A DNA stretch of 39,318 nucleotides from a virus: the IMG/VR virus record IMGVR_UViG_3300000553_000107, positions 1 through 39,318 of that record. One strand, given 5' to 3'. How positions within the stretch are numbered: position 1 is the first letter of the stretch; each line of letters starts with the position of its first letter. The position numbers were made by a program, and so were the translations under genes. Below are positions 1,878 to 37,136 of this stretch, piece by piece. The notes under the pieces were generated by a model. That model did no database searches. It was given only the letters and a program-made list of their open reading frames with translations, and was not told the DNA's origin.

Positions 1878-3383
1878 TTATGATTTAATCCATTCAAATT
1901 TCAGATGTCCACAATCCCATATTCTATCAAACCCATTTAATTGCATATTTTGCCATTCTGATAATTTTGGATCAAAATTGGTTAATTTCTTTGATAGTTT
2001 GTGTTTTTGGAAATTTGTTCTATCTATTGGCGCACAATAGTTTTTGTGGAAATAATGATAACTTGGTGGGGTATCCGATACAAATGACATCCCAATATTA
2101 TTATAAACATTACCATTAAAAAAGCGCTTATCAGCATATGTTACAATAGAAGACACTTGATTTGTGTTAATAAAATGTTTAAATAGTTTGGACGCACCAC
2201 CAATAATTGTGGTATTTAATAATGTACAATATCGTGACATTTCATATTGATACTTTTTATCGTACCTAGATTTTATAAAAGTCATAACGGACACCAAATT
2301 ATCATTATAATATAAACCAAGTTTAATAGAACTATTGTCATCCCCCTGAATATGATTTTTAAAAAGAAACGAAGATTTATCAGTTTCGGATAACACTTGG
2401 ATTATACATTTTCTAGCATAAATTTTAGTAGACTTAGATAGTTTGTTAAGTAAGATGCTTTCTACAATTTCCCGTTTGTTTAACCATTCCCAATCCCATA
2501 TATGTAATAGATTGACATTTTTACTGGCGCAGGTTTGTGTTTTAGTTAAATGATACTTTTTATCCTTTCCACCAGCCAATTCGCTATGCCAATAAACACC
2601 ATCACATTCTATACCAAGATTCAACGATGGTATATAAATATCAATTTCGTTACCATTTAAAATACTTCTATCATGTTGTTTAATATCAAGAATATGTTGT
2701 TTAAGAAAATCAAAAATCTCAGTTTCAACTTTTGACTTAAATCTTGCGTGTGGATAACATACCAAACACCTTGGTATATTACCGGAATATAAATTATCAT
2801 CAAATTCGTTATTACATACACCACATCTGAATTTATACAAATTATTATATTCAGAACCAATATAATCTTCTCTTTTAAACAATGGTATAACCACGCCTTT
2901 AAGTCGGCTTCCATTAAAAATATGTTCTATCATTTCATCAATTTTTTTCTGCTTCCTCTGAACCTTAACACTTTGTAATTGTGACACATTAGAAATATCA
3001 TTTGTTTTTAAATAATTCTTAAATTTATCAGACTTAAATCCAATTTCACCGGCAGCAGTTCTATCAGTAATGCTTTTTAATGTATTCGGCGATATATTCA
3101 TACCATACTTTTCGTTGTTTGTTTGTAACATCTTATCTCTATTATTATAAGTTGCATCACCATATTTTTCAAGTTTTGTCTTTTTTACTTGTTCAACATT
3201 AACATAATTTTCATTACCATATCTTTCTAATAATGTTTTTTTCATATTCTTTACCACATCATCATAAGCACCAGCTTCTCGTTTCTTTTTAATCTTATCC
3301 TTTACCCACGGAAGTTGTGATGGATGCGAAACTCCATATTTTTTCATAAATGCGTCTTTTATTTTTTGTCCTCTATTTGTCAT
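1878..3383 (-). CDS. free-standing homing endonuclease, EDxHD/Vsr-like nuclease with C-terminal GNAT/Mom-like domain
   Basis: A protein of 501 residues. Residues 1-100 hold degenerate repeats of the KKYGVxNxxQ type (KKYGVSHPSQ, ERYGNENY, EKYGDATY), a DNA-recognition region common in phage homing endonucleases. A zinc ribbon follows (C187/C190 and C206/C209). The nuclease core at about 215-300 has EIDIYIPSLNLGIECDG and YWHSE, a KKYH...K segment, and LLHIWDWEW, which fits the EDxHD variant of the PD-(D/E)XK/Vsr fold. Residues 322-500 are the second domain: NHIQGDD, LGLYYNDNLVSVMTF, GGASKLFKHF, TYADKRFFNGNVY, then EWQNMQLNGFDRIWDCG. Two paralogues with the same order lie at 22038 and 33634. The gene sits alone between the terminator after the tail sheath and an intergenic gap, typical of an optional mobile gene. 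Confidence 0.8.
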   Translation of the reverse strand: MTNRGQKIKDAFMKKYGVSHPSQLPWVKDKIKKKREAGAYDDVVKNMKKTLLERYGNENYVNVEQVKKTKLEKYGDATYNNRDKMLQTNNEKYGMNISPNTLKSITDRTAAGEIGFKSDKFKNYLKTNDISNVSQLQSVKVQRKQKKIDEMIEHIFNGSRLKGVVIPLFKREDYIGSEYNNLYKFRCGVCNNEFDDNLYSGNIPRCLVCYPHARFKSKVETEIFDFLKQHILDIKQHDRSILNGNEIDIYIPSLNLGIECDGVYWHSELAGGKDKKYHLTKTQTCASKNVNLLHIWDWEWLNKREIVESILLNKLSKSTKIYARKCIIQVLSETDKSSFLFKNHIQGDDNSSIKLGLYYNDNLVSVMTFIKSRYDKKYQYEMSRYCTLLNTTIIGGASKLFKHFINTNQVSSIVTYADKRFFNGNVYNNIGMSFVSDTPPSYHYFHKNYCAPIDRTNFQKHKLSKKLTNFDPKLSEWQNMQLNGFDRIWDCGHLKFEWIKS

Positions 3384-22037: not shown

Positions 22038-23438
22038 CTATTTCTTTTTCCACTCATATTTCAACGAACCACAATCCCATATTCTATCATAACCATTTAG
22101 TTGCATATTTTGCCACTCTGTTAATGAATTATCAAAATTGACCAATCGTTTTTTCAACACATTTTTTCTAAACCCAAATCGATGAAACCTTTTAACATGA
22201 TCCTTGGTATACCAATAATTTGGTTTAGTTTTAGAAATTAATGTTAATCCCATTTTTTCATATAAGTTTCCAGTTGACCATCTTCTATCGGCATATGTTA
22301 TAATTTTATCGGGATTGTATAATCGTATAAAATGTGTAAATATTTTACTAGCACCACCAACCACCGAACAATTGGAACAATATCTATATAATTCATAAAC
22401 ATTCTTTTGTGCACAACCTCCCATAGAAACTCTTGTTTTCCCAAATGTCATAAGTGCCACGAGTTTTTCATTATAAAACGCCCCCAATCTTATTAAACTG
22501 TGATCATTTCCCTGAATGTGATTAGAAATTAAAAACTCATTTGCAATAGAGGGTTCCACAACTTTTATCAAACAATTTCTTGCATATACTCGATTTATAT
22601 TTGTTTTTATATTTAATAGTCTATTTATTTTTCCATATACCAATTCTTTATTAAATAAAAACTCATCCTCGAATATCTGTATCAATGTTATATTATTTGC
22701 CTCACATTTTTCAGTTTTATTTATATGATATGTTTTATTTCTATTACCAGAAATTTCTGAATGGTAATATATGCCATTGTATTCTATTGCAATTTTTTTA
22801 GATGGAATATAAATATCAAGTTCCATTTCATCAATAATATTTCTGGTAGACAATAATGTATCACCATAGTATATTTTAATATAATCATATAATTCCAACT
22901 GTGCTTTGGATTGTTTTATGGGAAAACACACTCTACAAATAGGAATTCTACCATCTTGTAAATGATCATCAAATATGGATTGACATACGGTACACTTAAA
23001 TTTATATGTTAATTCTACTCCACGGTATTCTTCTAACATAAACATCGGTGATATATTTATAAATTTGTTGTTTTTTATTCTATTATAATTTCTTTCCCAA
23101 ATTTTGTGTTTATATTCATCGGATTGGAGATAATAGTCTACGCCATATTTTATCTTACACGTTTTCTTGATAGCATCCTTAACAGATTCAAGTTTTAAGT
23201 TACAATCAACTCCACAAGTTTTTATATTTGTTTCGCGTTTCTTTTGTTTTATTTCATTAGATTTAGACGGATTATCTACACCATATTTATTTAAATAAGA
23301 TTCTTTCTTTTTATTTTGTGTTTCTTTATTAGAATTCGAACATTTATAACTACAATGTTTTGAATATCCTTTATTAACTCCTAAAAATTTTGTAGGAGAA
23401 TTACATACTCTACACAACCCAACATCATTAATTATCAC
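22038..23438 (-). CDS. free-standing homing endonuclease, EDxHD/Vsr-like nuclease with C-terminal GNAT/Mom-like domain
   Basis: A 466-residue protein from a GTG start at 23438. Residues 9-33 form a Cys-rich finger (CRVC, then KHCSYKC). KYGVDNPSKS-type repeats follow at about 50-105, then a zinc ribbon (C149/C152 and C168/C171). The nuclease core at 204-262 reads ELDIYIPSKKIAIEYNG, YYHSE, KTYHINKTEKCE and LIQIFEDEF; the His seen in the paralogues (LLHIWD, LIHIFED) is Gln here. The C-terminal domain at 285-466 has NHIQGND, GAFYNEKLVALMTFGKTR, YRYCSNCSVVGGASKIF, TYADRRWSTGNLYEKMG and PNYWY. The GTGA start overlaps the stop of a basic micro-ORF. The gene is inserted upstream of the neck gene. Confidence 0.8.
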   Translation of the reverse strand: MIINDVGLCRVCNSPTKFLGVNKGYSKHCSYKCSNSNKETQNKKKESYLNKYGVDNPSKSNEIKQKKRETNIKTCGVDCNLKLESVKDAIKKTCKIKYGVDYYLQSDEYKHKIWERNYNRIKNNKFINISPMFMLEEYRGVELTYKFKCTVCQSIFDDHLQDGRIPICRVCFPIKQSKAQLELYDYIKIYYGDTLLSTRNIIDEMELDIYIPSKKIAIEYNGIYYHSEISGNRNKTYHINKTEKCEANNITLIQIFEDEFLFNKELVYGKINRLLNIKTNINRVYARNCLIKVVEPSIANEFLISNHIQGNDHSLIRLGAFYNEKLVALMTFGKTRVSMGGCAQKNVYELYRYCSNCSVVGGASKIFTHFIRLYNPDKIITYADRRWSTGNLYEKMGLTLISKTKPNYWYTKDHVKRFHRFGFRKNVLKKRLVNFDNSLTEWQNMQLNGYDRIWDCGSLKYEWKKK

Positions 23439-28658: not shown

Positions 28659-30326
28659 TTAGACAGTATCTAAGTCTGCCACGAAGATGCGGCCATAAAA
28701 TTCTGGCCGGACCACTTTCTTAGCATAACGGGTCATAACACCACGTCTCGGCGTGAAGTTAATCGGGTCGTATACTAATGGAGTTTGGACCAGCGGAATA
28801 TATGGAGAATAGACCGCACCAGTTTCCAAGAAATTGCTTCCACGGAAACCAACGAGGATTTGGTTCTCAACCATGTACGGGTTCTTGTAGACTTGGAAGC
28901 GACTTGCGAAGCTACCAACTTTACTTACGCCCATTGCGAACTTAGCGGAATCTCCGTCTGTCGAAGCGACATAACCTGGGATACTTTCCAAGATAGTTGC
29001 GACATCAGGCGAACAAACCAAGAAGTTAGCTCCACCACGAAGAGTCAACTGATGAATCTTGTTGGAGACTTTTTGAATCTTGTTACCAAGAGTTTGATAC
29101 CAAGTCGACTTGACATATGCTGTACGGTTAGGAGAAGCGTCAACATTATATGTGAAGGTACTAGCACCAACGTTCTTAGTGAACTCATTACCAATCTTAG
29201 CACTCCACGCTTCTGTAGTAGCAAACGGGGTAGCAGTCAGTAACATATCAAGGATTTCGAGATCGATTTCCATCGAAACATATTCACTTAACAAAGCGGT
29301 AAGCTCTGCTTCGGCGTCAATGCTGTGATAGGCATTCAAATCTTGTGCCAATTCAGGGGTCCAAACGGCTTTGAGCTTACGGGTCTTAGCGACAATCGGC
29401 TCACTCTTCAACTCAAGGTTGACTTCAGGAATATTAATTCCGGGATTTACTGGACCACCAGCAGTACTAGCAGTACTATCTTCAAAGTCACCACGGGTTT
29501 GCGGGGTCGGTTGTTTCTCGTATGAGAGATAGTAACCAACACCGGCACCACTGACTACTTCATTAACAATGAAATTAGCCCAATATACAGGAGCAGCAAT
29601 CGTACCAGTATTTGTGATTGTCGAGAACTGATTAATCACATTTGCGGCAGTAATTGCAGAACCAGTTGCAAAAGAGCCAGTAACAATCCATGCACGAACT
29701 GATGTTAAATCAGCAGATGCGACAGTATTGTCTCCAAGCGGAATGGTCACTTTGGTATAACTACCAGTGCCAATGTAATTAATATCAAACATAACATCAG
29801 TACCAGAAACAGTACTGGCCGTAATGTTTGTAGTTCCGGCTAGATTAGCACCATTGATAGTATAGCCAAACCGACCTGGGCCATACAAGCCATTGGTAGC
29901 ACTATCAGTCGAACCAAGCTTGATGCCTGTTCCACCGAACAATGACGAACCAGAGAACGCCGGGTTCGACAAACCATTAACCGTGCTGTATTTGAAATCC
30001 AGATAGAAAATCAAACCGGAAGGCAGGTTCATGGGTTGAACGGACACGAATTCTTTAGCCGCAATTTCAGCAAACACACGACGAACCAACGGAAGGGCGA
30101 CGCCAGCCCACTGCTCACTGTTAGCAGAGGTACCAGTAGCTGTCGCTTCTGTGATCAATTGTTGTGCTTGGTTCTCCAAGAGAACTGACATCTGAGCTTT
30201 CTCGATGCCTTTAAGACCTTCAAGAAGGCCAGTTTTTTCCCACTTACTTTGCAGACCACGGGTTTCTTCCATCAGTCTGGTAGTAGGACTTGTGTTGCCT
30301 GTAAGCAACTCTTTAATTTTACTCAT
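28659..30326 (-). CDS. major capsid protein, T4 gp23-like
   Basis: A protein of 555 residues that forms the hexamers of the head. The N-terminal region has WEKTGLLEGLKGIEKAQMSV and the propeptide ending LITE|ATATG, a match to the gp21 cleavage rule (I/L-x-E before A/G), so cutting after E60 would leave a mature chain of about 495 residues. Next come SEQWAGVALPLVRRVFAEIA and VSVQPMNLPSGLIFYLDFKY, then LAQDLNAYHSIDAEAELTAL and the C-terminal FYGRIFVADLDT, all standard for T4-like capsid proteins. The ribosome site AAAGGAAAATAAC is strong. The gp22-like scaffold gene lies immediately upstream and a terminator follows. Confidence 0.95.
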   Translation of the reverse strand: MSKIKELLTGNTSPTTRLMEETRGLQSKWEKTGLLEGLKGIEKAQMSVLLENQAQQLITEATATGTSANSEQWAGVALPLVRRVFAEIAAKEFVSVQPMNLPSGLIFYLDFKYSTVNGLSNPAFSGSSLFGGTGIKLGSTDSATNGLYGPGRFGYTINGANLAGTTNITASTVSGTDVMFDINYIGTGSYTKVTIPLGDNTVASADLTSVRAWIVTGSFATGSAITAANVINQFSTITNTGTIAAPVYWANFIVNEVVSGAGVGYYLSYEKQPTPQTRGDFEDSTASTAGGPVNPGINIPEVNLELKSEPIVAKTRKLKAVWTPELAQDLNAYHSIDAEAELTALLSEYVSMEIDLEILDMLLTATPFATTEAWSAKIGNEFTKNVGASTFTYNVDASPNRTAYVKSTWYQTLGNKIQKVSNKIHQLTLRGGANFLVCSPDVATILESIPGYVASTDGDSAKFAMGVSKVGSFASRFQVYKNPYMVENQILVGFRGSNFLETGAVYSPYIPLVQTPLVYDPINFTPRRGVMTRYAKKVVRPEFYGRIFVADLDTV

Positions 30327-33633: not shown

Positions 33634-35313
33634 TCAACAGATTAATTCATATTTTAGATGACCACAATCCCAAATTCTATCATAACCATTATTTTGCATG
33701 TTCTGCCATTCTGACAGATTTGAGTCGAAATTAACAAACTTCTTACTCAATGTGTGTTTGGCAAACCCAAATCTATGATGTCGTCTATAATTCTTATCCT
33801 TTCCAAAATACCAATAATTAGGAGTACCATCACTAATCTTTTTAAATCCGATAGAAGCATATAAATTTTTGACAGAGTGTGTCCATCTTCTATCAGCATA
33901 ACTAATAACCTTATATGGTTTATGAATTTTAATAAAATGGTTTAAGAGTTTGCTTGCCCCGCCCACAACAGTTTTGTTAGATGCATATCTTATTAGCTCA
34001 TATTGACCCACAACAGACGTGGTATTCATAAACACTCTCGACTTACCGAAAGTCATTAATGATACCAATTCATCTTTATGAAAAAGGCCATAACAAATAC
34101 TACTTACATCATTTCCCTGTATATGATTAACATTTAAAAACCTCTTCTTGTCAACATTATCAATGGATCTTATATCACATGCTCTAGCATAAAGCTTATC
34201 AGTAGATTGTTTTAATATGTGTTTTAATTTATTATAAACAATATCTTTATTAAACAACCATTCGTCTTCAAATATATGAATCAAATGAATCCCCTGTTTT
34301 TCACATTCAATGGTTTTATTAAGATGATATGATTTATTCTTCATACCACCAATTTCTCCGTGCCAAAATAATCCATCACATTCAATCCCAATATTTAATG
34401 ACGGAATGTATATATCCAATTCTTTACCATTTAAAATAGTCTTGTCTCTGGATTTAATATCGATATTTGGTAATAACATTTTTATATACTTTGTTACCTC
34501 CTCTTCAAATATAGAAGACGATTTATAACAAGTCTGACACCGGGGGATATCGCCATCTTCTAAACAATCAACAAATTCGGTATTACAAACCAAACATTTA
34601 AATTTATAGTTGCCATAATAACCACCTGATATATATTCTTCTCTAGTAAATAATACAGCATATCTCCCACGTAATCTATCAGAATTTATAAGTGTATCAA
34701 AAAAATCACCCCTGCGTGTATTAGATATCTTATTGGCAATAGCAGCCACTTGTCTTACATTATTTACTCCGTATTTCTTAAATACACATTCTTCTTTTAA
34801 TTTCTGATCAGATAATATCCATTCAACTCCATGATTTTTTAAACAAGTAGATTTCTTCTTATCCGATATTCCATCTGCCTGTGAAATATTATCTACCCCA
34901 TATCTTTCCTTTACTGTTACCTTTCGTTTGTTTATAACACCAACGTTACTTAATCCATATTCTTTCCCATATTTCCTTAAATTACTAGATTTAATCTTAT
35001 CAATGGTAACGGGATTACTTTGGGCACATAAAGAGCAACACGCGGTTAGATATCCACGATTGAAAGAAAAAAATGTAGGCGGATTGTTACAAACAGGATT
35101 TCCACATTTTATAAACCCCACGTTGTTGATAATATGCCACAATCTCTGCTTAACCGGAGAATTAAACTTATTAAGAAAGAAGGTTTCTTCACAAATTTGG
35201 TTCCATTTGTCCATAAAATTGTATTTCTTAAACCAATCAATTTTACATTTCTTTGCTGTTGGATTGCCGATTCGATTTAACAAGTTACTTTTTGCCCATT
35301 CTCGTATTATCAT
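33634..35313 (-). CDS. free-standing homing endonuclease, EDxHD/Vsr-like nuclease with C-terminal GNAT/Mom-like domain
   Basis: A 559-residue protein from ATG 35313, chosen for the AAAGGA ribosome site 6 nt upstream (the frame runs on to 35367 without one). The N-terminal 100 residues include a Cys-rich finger (CGNPVCNNPP, CCSLC). Several KYG-type repeats follow (RKYGKEYG, ERYGVDNISQ, KKYGVNNVRQ), then a zinc ribbon (CLVC, CQTC) and the nuclease core KELDIYIPSLNIGIECDG, FWHGE, KSYHLNKTIECE, LIHIFEDEW. The C-terminal domain has ARACDIRS, NHIQGNDVS, YGLFHKDELVSLMTFGKSRV, GGASKLLNHF, SYADRRWTHSVKNLYASIGF and PNYWYFGK. It lies 74 bases after the intein-bearing gp21-like gene. Confidence 0.82.
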   Translation of the reverse strand: MIIREWAKSNLLNRIGNPTAKKCKIDWFKKYNFMDKWNQICEETFFLNKFNSPVKQRLWHIINNVGFIKCGNPVCNNPPTFFSFNRGYLTACCSLCAQSNPVTIDKIKSSNLRKYGKEYGLSNVGVINKRKVTVKERYGVDNISQADGISDKKKSTCLKNHGVEWILSDQKLKEECVFKKYGVNNVRQVAAIANKISNTRRGDFFDTLINSDRLRGRYAVLFTREEYISGGYYGNYKFKCLVCNTEFVDCLEDGDIPRCQTCYKSSSIFEEEVTKYIKMLLPNIDIKSRDKTILNGKELDIYIPSLNIGIECDGLFWHGEIGGMKNKSYHLNKTIECEKQGIHLIHIFEDEWLFNKDIVYNKLKHILKQSTDKLYARACDIRSIDNVDKKRFLNVNHIQGNDVSSICYGLFHKDELVSLMTFGKSRVFMNTTSVVGQYELIRYASNKTVVGGASKLLNHFIKIHKPYKVISYADRRWTHSVKNLYASIGFKKISDGTPNYWYFGKDKNYRRHHRFGFAKHTLSKKFVNFDSNLSEWQNMQNNGYDRIWDCGHLKYELIC

Positions 35314-35387
35314 ATTATATCCTTTGACTTTGAATATAATTATAGCAAAAGAAACAAAAAGAATCAATATTTTATAGATTTTGAATA

Positions 35388-37136
35388 TTACTTGATTTCA
35401 GAAAGAATATCGCGGATAATTGTTTCTGTTGATTCCCATTTATTTGATAATGGATTATGAACAACATTATGACTCACAGACTCATTCAATTGATCTTCGG
35501 GGAACATAAATGCGCCAACAGTGCTTGGATTTGATACGAAGTCAAAGCTGATTAAACTAAAATCATCCTGCACTTCGACAACACCTTCCGCCATATTCTT
35601 TACTGACCCCATACCACGGCTAGATATGCCAAGGGTAATTCCAGAACGAAGCAATTCTTTTAAAATGTTACCACATGGAGTCGGCAGAATTTCAACTTCT
35701 CCCATTAAATCCTTACCTTCCCACCACATTCTAACAATGTTATGGGATACATTTTTAAGATTAACAACACTCGAATTTCCTGACCAAAATGCATGATTAT
35801 TATCTTGGCAATAAAATGTACCATTTTTTACGGTTACACAATGCACCGTGTCATCATAATCAACTTCTTCAATTTTTATAAATCTAAAATCAATATGGAT
35901 AGCGACAGCTTCCTTTATCCACAATCTGTGTAATATTGATTTGTTTTTTGCTTCAATAATCCTTCCGGCAAACATATAATCTTCAGTAGTTATTTGTTCC
36001 TTAATTGTTCCAGACATTCCAAGTTTTAAGATAACTTCATAAAAATCTTCTACCAACTGCTTTGAAACAGAAAATATAGATGTTCTATCATATTTACCAA
36101 CGACAGTCCCATCACCATTTAAAAACCAATCATATAAATTTTGCAACAATGCTGTGGACGCATTCTTGATATCCGTGGGTATAAATTTTGTATATTTATC
36201 TCCTAACTTTGAAAGATATGTCCACAAACGAGCATCTGAACAATTAAATGTTATACCCCCGTCGCCTTTATCCCATTCATTCCATTTTAATTCAGGACTT
36301 AATTGGTTTAAAATCTCTCTAAATGCATCAGCAATTTCCCCCTTATTTTGTGTTATAAATATACCATATCCATCACTTGTATTTCTATTTGCACAATGTC
36401 CTTCTGCAAGATAAAATCCCAAAAACGAAAACCATGCGTTTACATTTAGTGTTAACGCAGTAGTTTGTTTAATTATATAATCTCTAGATTGATTTTTTGC
36501 GACATCTTCAATATTAACCGCATCAACTTTGTAGAAATCATAATCAATTCCATTCCAATTTTCTGCAACAATTGGAATAGACAAATGTGGAGTGTTTGTT
36601 TGTTTAGATATTTCAAATATTTCTTGTGCTGTCTTTTCTATAAAATTATTTTTTCTATCTTTCAAAACAAATCTGTGATTTGGAGTTACCAAGACATCTA
36701 TATTTTTTCCTTTTATAGATATCATTTTACCCTTATATGGATCATTAATTACTCGTTCAACTAAATTAAATTCAATTGTGTTAGTTTCCGTGTTTAATGT
36801 TACAACATTTTCTCCAATAATAATATCTTTTAGATATTTCCAACCGTTAATTGTCAATATTTGTGCACTGGGACGATGGCATTCCGGATGATCTAATTCT
36901 CCCATTGCCCGTTTTTGTTTAACAAAGTCTTGCTCATACTTATGAGCTTCACGCATAAGAATTTCGTATGGATAAACCCTACCATTTTGATTCTTTTCTT
37001 CTGCCCGTTGAAGAATGCCAGTAACCAGGGTTTTTCCTGACTTTCTAGCAGCAGTTCCTTCAAACGCTTCATTCAATTCTTCTTTTGAAATGGTGAATGG
37101 AGTATACCCACATATCGGTTTATCTGTTTTATTCAT
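35388..37136 (-). CDS. prohead protease, T4 gp21-like, containing an intein
   Basis: A precursor of 582 residues. The exteins (1-85 and 455-582) together make 213 residues, the size of T4 gp21. The N-extein has NQNGRVYPYEILMREAHKYE and ends in the catalytic-His motif MGELDHPE (H83). The C-extein begins SSVVNLKNVSHNIVRMWWEG, with EILPTPCGNILKELL and the Ser motif LGISSRGMGSVK (Ser505 or Ser506 the likely nucleophile), then SLISFDFVSNPS. The protease cuts scaffold and capsid proteins during head maturation. The intein separates the His motif from the Ser motif, so no active protease can exist before splicing. The gene lies upstream of the gp22 and gp23 genes, as in T4, with a homing endonuclease inserted after it. 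Confidence 0.93.
   Translation of the reverse strand: MNKTDKPICGYTPFTISKEELNEAFEGTAARKSGKTLVTGILQRAEEKNQNGRVYPYEILMREAHKYEQDFVKQKRAMGELDHPECHRPSAQILTINGWKYLKDIIIGENVVTLNTETNTIEFNLVERVINDPYKGKMISIKGKNIDVLVTPNHRFVLKDRKNNFIEKTAQEIFEISKQTNTPHLSIPIVAENWNGIDYDFYKVDAVNIEDVAKNQSRDYIIKQTTALTLNVNAWFSFLGFYLAEGHCANRNTSDGYGIFITQNKGEIADAFREILNQLSPELKWNEWDKGDGGITFNCSDARLWTYLSKLGDKYTKFIPTDIKNASTALLQNLYDWFLNGDGTVVGKYDRTSIFSVSKQLVEDFYEVILKLGMSGTIKEQITTEDYMFAGRIIEAKNKSILHRLWIKEAVAIHIDFRFIKIEEVDYDDTVHCVTVKNGTFYCQDNNHAFWSGNSSVVNLKNVSHNIVRMWWEGKDLMGEVEILPTPCGNILKELLRSGITLGISSRGMGSVKNMAEGVVEVQDDFSLISFDFVSNPSTVGAFMFPEDQLNESVSHNVVHNPLSNKWESTETIIRDILSEIK
35775..36881 (-). mobile_element. LAGLIDADG intein in the prohead protease gene
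   Basis: A 369-residue insert (precursor C86 to N454). Block A: CHRPSAQILTINGWKYLKD, with Cys as the first residue. Block B: DVLVTPNHRFVLKD, with the TxxH motif. Two LAGLIDADG helices: WFSFLGFYLAEGH (236-247) and LQNLYDWFLNGDGTVVG (331-347). Block F: HCVTVKNGTFYCQ. Block G: NNHAFWSGN followed by Ser455. Residues GN replace the common HN, so the usual penultimate His is missing; some natural inteins lack it and still splice. The homing endonuclease motifs keep their acidic residues (E246, D342). Confidence 0.93.

Follow-up and report, generated by a model that had tools for sequence, protein, structure and literature searches.

The window, i.e., the whole 39,318-base stretch of viral DNA analyzed here (IMG/VR record IMGVR_UViG_3300000553_000107), harbors a class 1 LAGLIDADG intein inside the gene of a gp21-type (Peptidase_S77) prohead protease, an identification which can be regarded as confirmed. 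According to the reading favored here, to which a probability of about 92% is assigned, such an intein invaded the active site of the protease, splices itself out, and persists by homing, without acting as a timer. The element is of an ordinary kind; what appears to be new is its location within the active site of a head protease of the T4 type. The anatomy of the intein, its empty site, its conservation, its patchy distribution, and its lateral transfer are documented by sequence comparison, and the evidence for a family of such inteins, for two insertion points, and for recent movement is clear.

The protease gene is a continuous open reading frame (35388..37136, minus strand) coding for a 582-aa precursor. 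Pfam recovers Peptidase_S77 in it (E 9.6e-24) as two pieces flanking the insert, PHROGs assigns it to phrog_207, head maturation protease (8.7e-47), and T4 gp21 (PDB 5jbl; 3.6e-12) aligns with it on either side of the insert. As delimited by alignment, the N-extein (85 aa; 36882..37136, minus strand) ends with ...MGELDHPE, and the C-extein (128 aa; 35391..35774, minus strand) starts with SSVVNLKNVSH. Together, they amount to 213 aa, the length of T4 gp21 being 212 aa, in agreement with the initial annotation, which recognized a T4-like gp21 protease of this size. The catalytic residues are divided between the exteins: His83 (36888-36890) belongs to the N-extein, Ser505 (35622-35624) and Asp532 (35541-35543) to the C-extein, all on the minus strand. 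Once spliced, this triad becomes His83/Ser136/Asp163, situated in conserved motifs and corresponding to His85, Ser140, and Asp168 of T4 gp21. The N-terminal splice junction, HP-E|C, lies two residues past His83. The insertion thus follows MGELDHPE and precedes the Ser motif, as proposed initially, but this motif starts about 50 residues past the C-terminal splice junction. Because Ser and Asp sit in the C-extein, the precursor would lack the native arrangement of the triad.

The likely substrate of the protease, the major capsid protein gp23, is encoded in the window at 28659..30326 (minus strand; PF07068, 2.7e-73). Its motif LITE60|A matches the L/I-x-E rule of gp21 cleavage (PMC9026906), which is consistent with E60 as the putative cleavage site suggested in the initial annotation. 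Hence, the likeness to T4 gp21 comprises the spliced length, the His/Ser/Asp triad, and the gp23 gene close by; the difference is that the T4 gene is uninterrupted, as it is in the other 81 intein-free relatives of the tree set, whereas the window gene is interrupted.

Intein-profile scans of viral contigs yielded about 50 gp21-intein loci; after addition of two annotated-phage records and the window itself, the collection comprised 56 loci with 47 non-identical inteins, every one of which comes from a phage sequence. When bacterial and archaeal genomes were scanned, no relatives of the gp21 intein emerged, so a bacterial source was rejected, and megablast found no phage records nearly identical to the window. 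The window intein (35775..36881, minus strand) spans 369 aa, residues 86-454 of the precursor (Cys86...Asn454), followed by Ser in the +1 position. Its boundaries, supported by Pfam, profile, and fold matches, coincide exactly with those of the initial annotation. In the insert, Pfam detects LAGLIDADG_3 (1.6e-09) and Intein_splicing (PF14890; 37.7 bits, the curated cut-off being 35.8). A PDB search with the insert as a single sequence returned nothing meaningful; a profile of six relatives aligns with the solved inteins MJ0781, AceL NrdHF, and PI-PkoII. The AlphaFold model of the intein (mean pLDDT 89.2, pTM 0.88) combines the HINT and LAGLIDADG folds. Its top Foldseek matches in the PDB are full-length endonuclease inteins (E 7.7e-15), with LAGLIDADG enzymes such as I-DmoI ranking next; PI-PkoII, PhoVMA, and PI-SceI are also among the matches, the solved inteins showing just ~10% identity to that of the window. 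The model of the whole precursor is of low confidence (pTM 0.44), and a fold search with it again matched just inteins and LAGLIDADG enzymes. Neither of the findings named beforehand as speaking against an intein, i.e., a homologue keeping the insert in the mature protease or the lack of any intein-profile match, was borne out.

The residues expected of a splicing element with an endonuclease are conserved throughout the collection. Cys1, Thr B:7 and His B:10 (the window motif TPNH, 36675..36686), the terminal Asn, and the Asp of the second LAGLIDADG motif (LYDWFLNGDG, 36108..36137) are invariant in 47/47 inteins. The acid of the first LAGLIDADG motif (FLGFYLAEG, 36399..36425, with catalytic Glu) is Glu or Asp in 47/47, and Cys F:4 is found in 46/47, as is Ser or Cys in the +1 position. 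Blocks F and G of the window intein (CVTVKNGTFY...FWSGN, 35775..35846; all these motifs are on the minus strand) feature Cys F:4, Gly in place of the block F His, a penultimate Gly, and the terminal Asn. The splicing chemistry, DNA cutting, and protease activity of the window system are inferred; the two LAGLIDADG helices with their catalytic acids make the intein a putative homing endonuclease.

The assignment to class 1 follows from Cys1, the TxxH of block B, the terminal Asn, the +1 Ser, the HINT fold, and an in-frame empty site; a penultimate His, common but not required in this class, is replaced by Gly. Class 3, which is characterized by the WCT motif and the lack of Cys1/Ser1, was considered and rejected. 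The gp21 inteins share with it Cys F:4 and Thr/Ser at G:5 (Ser in the window), but they possess Cys1, and B:12 is Phe in 41/47, including the window, and Trp in 0/47. In known inteins, F:4 is preferentially Asp, then Cys, then Trp (PMC4031507). The class 1 LAGLIDADG phage inteins, e.g., that of the mycobacteriophage Bethlehem RDF gp51, along with the PI-SceI and PI-PkoII folds, have in common with the window intein Cys1, the block B Thr/His, the terminal Asn, the LAGLIDADG pair, and insertion at an active-site motif; the RDF intein has the penultimate Gly as well (PMC5050341). Unlike them, the gp21 intein is hosted by a T4-type head protease, and in the window clade the block F His is missing as well.

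The inteins of the family occupy two points around the same catalytic His, five residues apart, GE|xDHPE|S. Site b, that of the window, accommodates 38/47 inteins and follows HP[EDSA] or, in one case, HP; the remaining 9/47 are inserted at site a (GE|x-x-HP), which precedes the His by three residues. Since the +1 position of site b is already Ser in 77/82 intein-free proteases, insertion there would demand no change of the host protein. At site a, the +1 position is Leu in 82/82 intein-free proteases and, in the intein hosts, Cys in 7/8 scorable cases and Ser in one; insertion at site a is accompanied by an altered active-site residue. Family members are also present in annotated phage records, namely LR756508 (484 kb, uncultured) and two records of Desulfovibrio phage 7757 / SRB7757 (142.6 kb), in all of which the intein is unannotated. 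No report of an intein in a gp21-type protease was found in the open-licence literature (InBase and subscription papers being outside its scope), and the family provisionally appears to be undescribed.

The empty site sought by the initial annotation is exact in the intein-free relatives, which mostly display a gapless GELDHP(E/D)-S-x-V-V-N, e.g., GELDHPE|SSVVN. The intein-bearing contig L004 and the intein-free L058 are collinear with 83-90% nucleotide identity, and in gp21 they differ by the intein alone. Likewise, L003 is collinear with the intein-free L056 and differs from it by the intein at gp21; beyond this, L003 carries a further ~1.8 kb with a free-standing nuclease 3' of gp21. The codons just past the insertion site are TCATCC (Ser-Ser) in L004 vs. 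ACTAGT (Thr-Ser) in L058, the flanking DNA being nearly identical; co-conversion or selection for the +1 Ser is possible.

The distribution of the intein on the protease tree is patchy. In this quick tree, which has some long branches and whose 129 rows were taken from the top hits of the individual scans and do not allow the intein frequency to be estimated, presence and absence change 15 times, at least 10 of the changes being forced by well-supported branches. The window protease is nearest to that of the intein-free L046 (67%), and its intein is 75% identical to the inteins of hosts whose proteases are just 55-62% identical. The intein DNA of L123 is 98.4/99.6% identical to that of L124/L125, with 85-87% for the exteins and 74% for the upstream DNA, a pattern best read as a probable recent lateral transfer. 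With a mean pN/pS of 0.27, as compared to 0.31 in the splicing domain and 0.36 in the exteins, the endonuclease domain does not seem to be decaying; these values are rough due to pS near saturation. The patchy presence, the intein DNA being closer than the exteins, and the purifying selection on the endonuclease therefore point to an actively moving homing element.

In the proposed sequence of events, the precursor would be unable to form the His/Ser/Asp triad. Cys86 would attack the Glu85-Cys86 bond, the N-extein would be transferred to Ser455, and Asn454 would cyclize unaided by a penultimate or block F His. The exteins would then be joined as ...GELDHPE-SSVVN... into a normal 213-aa protease capable of processing the head proteins. 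During co-infection, the endonuclease would cut intein-free gp21 genes, and repair would copy the intein in. The intein would persist by homing, and also since nothing short of its precise loss would restore the essential gene; the split of an essential catalytic center would thus explain the persistence of a costly parasite, since its imprecise loss would be lethal.

Another nuclease may contribute to this mobility. A free-standing homing endonuclease gene (33634..35367, minus strand; phrog_3339, 8e-117) is situated directly 3' of the protease gene. Within the window clade, a nuclease of this family occupies this position in 6/14 intein-bearing vs. 1/69 intein-free relatives (Fisher p 5e-5, uncorrected for kinship). 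As a possible addition to homing by the intein itself, the free-standing nuclease would cut intein-free gp21 and the intein would protect its own genome. There is a precedent for such collaborative homing in F-CphI and the psbA intron of the cyanophage S-PM2 (PMC6083498), where a free-standing nuclease gene also adjoins a gene with a self-splicing element; that system involves an intron and another nuclease family, whereas here the element is an intein and the relationship, as judged from gene adjacency, is putative. At the same time, the nuclease is absent in 8/14 intein-bearing relatives and present in the intein-free L045, the intein has a conserved endonuclease of its own, two more genes of the same family lie elsewhere in the phage, and the statistics are uncorrected for kinship, so that collaborative homing is considered rather unlikely. 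Equally tentative is the combined picture of a large family at two sites around the His, splicing in the window clade without the penultimate and block F His, and at least sometimes moving jointly with the nuclease. In total, the window contains three free-standing phrog_3339 homing endonuclease genes in 39 kb (1878-3383, 22038-23438, and 33634-35367, all on the minus strand). Searches of the window for tRNAs and structured RNAs gave no hits.

The interrupted gene is the sole S77/phrog_207 match in each of 14 intein-bearing records, which include the 484-kb and 142.6-kb phage records along with some fragments, although very divergent proteases could escape such a search. The window, itself a fragment of a phage genome, contains no second S77 match. 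As no second S77/phrog_207 protease occurs in these 14 records, head maturation probably depends on splicing; the dependence, called strict in the initial annotation, is therefore likely but, with the window being a 39-kb fragment, short of proof.

The same annotation went further, suggesting that the GN end of the intein may slow splicing and make it tunable, and that the intein could delay protease activation. The penultimate residue is Gly in 39/47 gp21 inteins and His in 0/47; Gly is fixed in 38/38 site-b inteins, site a featuring Lys, Ser, Asn, or Gly. Hence, the penultimate Gly represents a lineage trait. The block F His position harbors Gly in 27/47 and His in 12/47, the window clade being without His. 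In general, the penultimate and block F His assist Asn cyclization, and the block F His can substitute for the penultimate one. The mycobacteriophage RDF intein, in which the penultimate Gly is native, spliced completely in its parental form, and its change to His slowed splicing with accumulation of the precursor (Kelley et al. 2016, PMC5050341); other inteins vary in their response to changes of this residue (PMC5050341). These findings leave the idea of Gly-tuned splicing weak. A regulatory intein whose slow or conditional splicing would postpone protease activation to a point after assembly of the prohead core is, accordingly, improbable: the insertion does split the triad, which is expected to leave the precursor inactive, and conditional splicing is known in some inteins (mycobacterial DnaB), but the intein is patchily present, most intein-bearing lineages near the window have close intein-free relatives, and near-identical intein DNA and purifying selection are features of active homing. 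The gp21 intein thus seems to spread as a selfish element rather than to serve as a timer. That the insert is a permanent protease domain or a splicing-dead remnant, with an alternative or host protease being used, is least credible of all: the block F and penultimate His are both absent, but none of the other splicing residues varies, purifying selection acts on the domain, the exteins retain an intact triad, the empty sites are exact, and the 14 records contain no other S77/phrog_207 protease.

With the selfish, self-splicing intein as the favored reading, a virion-assembly protease is added to the genes occupied by inteins, and the family spans many T4-type and jumbo phages, being unannotated in the public records where it was found. 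With the sequenced records of the Desulfovibrio vulgaris phage, splicing could become accessible to direct measurement in vivo, and natural inteins lacking both the penultimate and block F His offer material for studying His-free Asn cyclization.

Several loci deviate from the general pattern. In the site-a intein of L139, an additional Tyr separates the terminal Asn from the Cys which is +1 in its relatives; this intein may be splicing-defective or reflect a sequence error. The gp21 gene of L044 (4001-5608), which harbors an intein of the same kind, lacks TGG and has nine TGA codons in frame; several of the TGA codons occupy expected Trp positions, suggesting that this phage may read TGA as Trp. 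A related intein fragment in L041 (2470-2946) has five in-frame TGA codons, and recoding is possible there as well. Related LAGLIDADG inteins are also found on phage contigs in host proteins other than gp21 (L037, L038, L039, L040, L042, and L165); inteins of Rak2-like phages are known from the terminase (PMC5259590). Finally, in Synechococcus phage B23 (L167, 172203-179213), the gene of a T4-like gp55 late sigma factor shows a 23% match to this intein family over nearly the whole intein, so this sigma factor may be interrupted by an intein, too.
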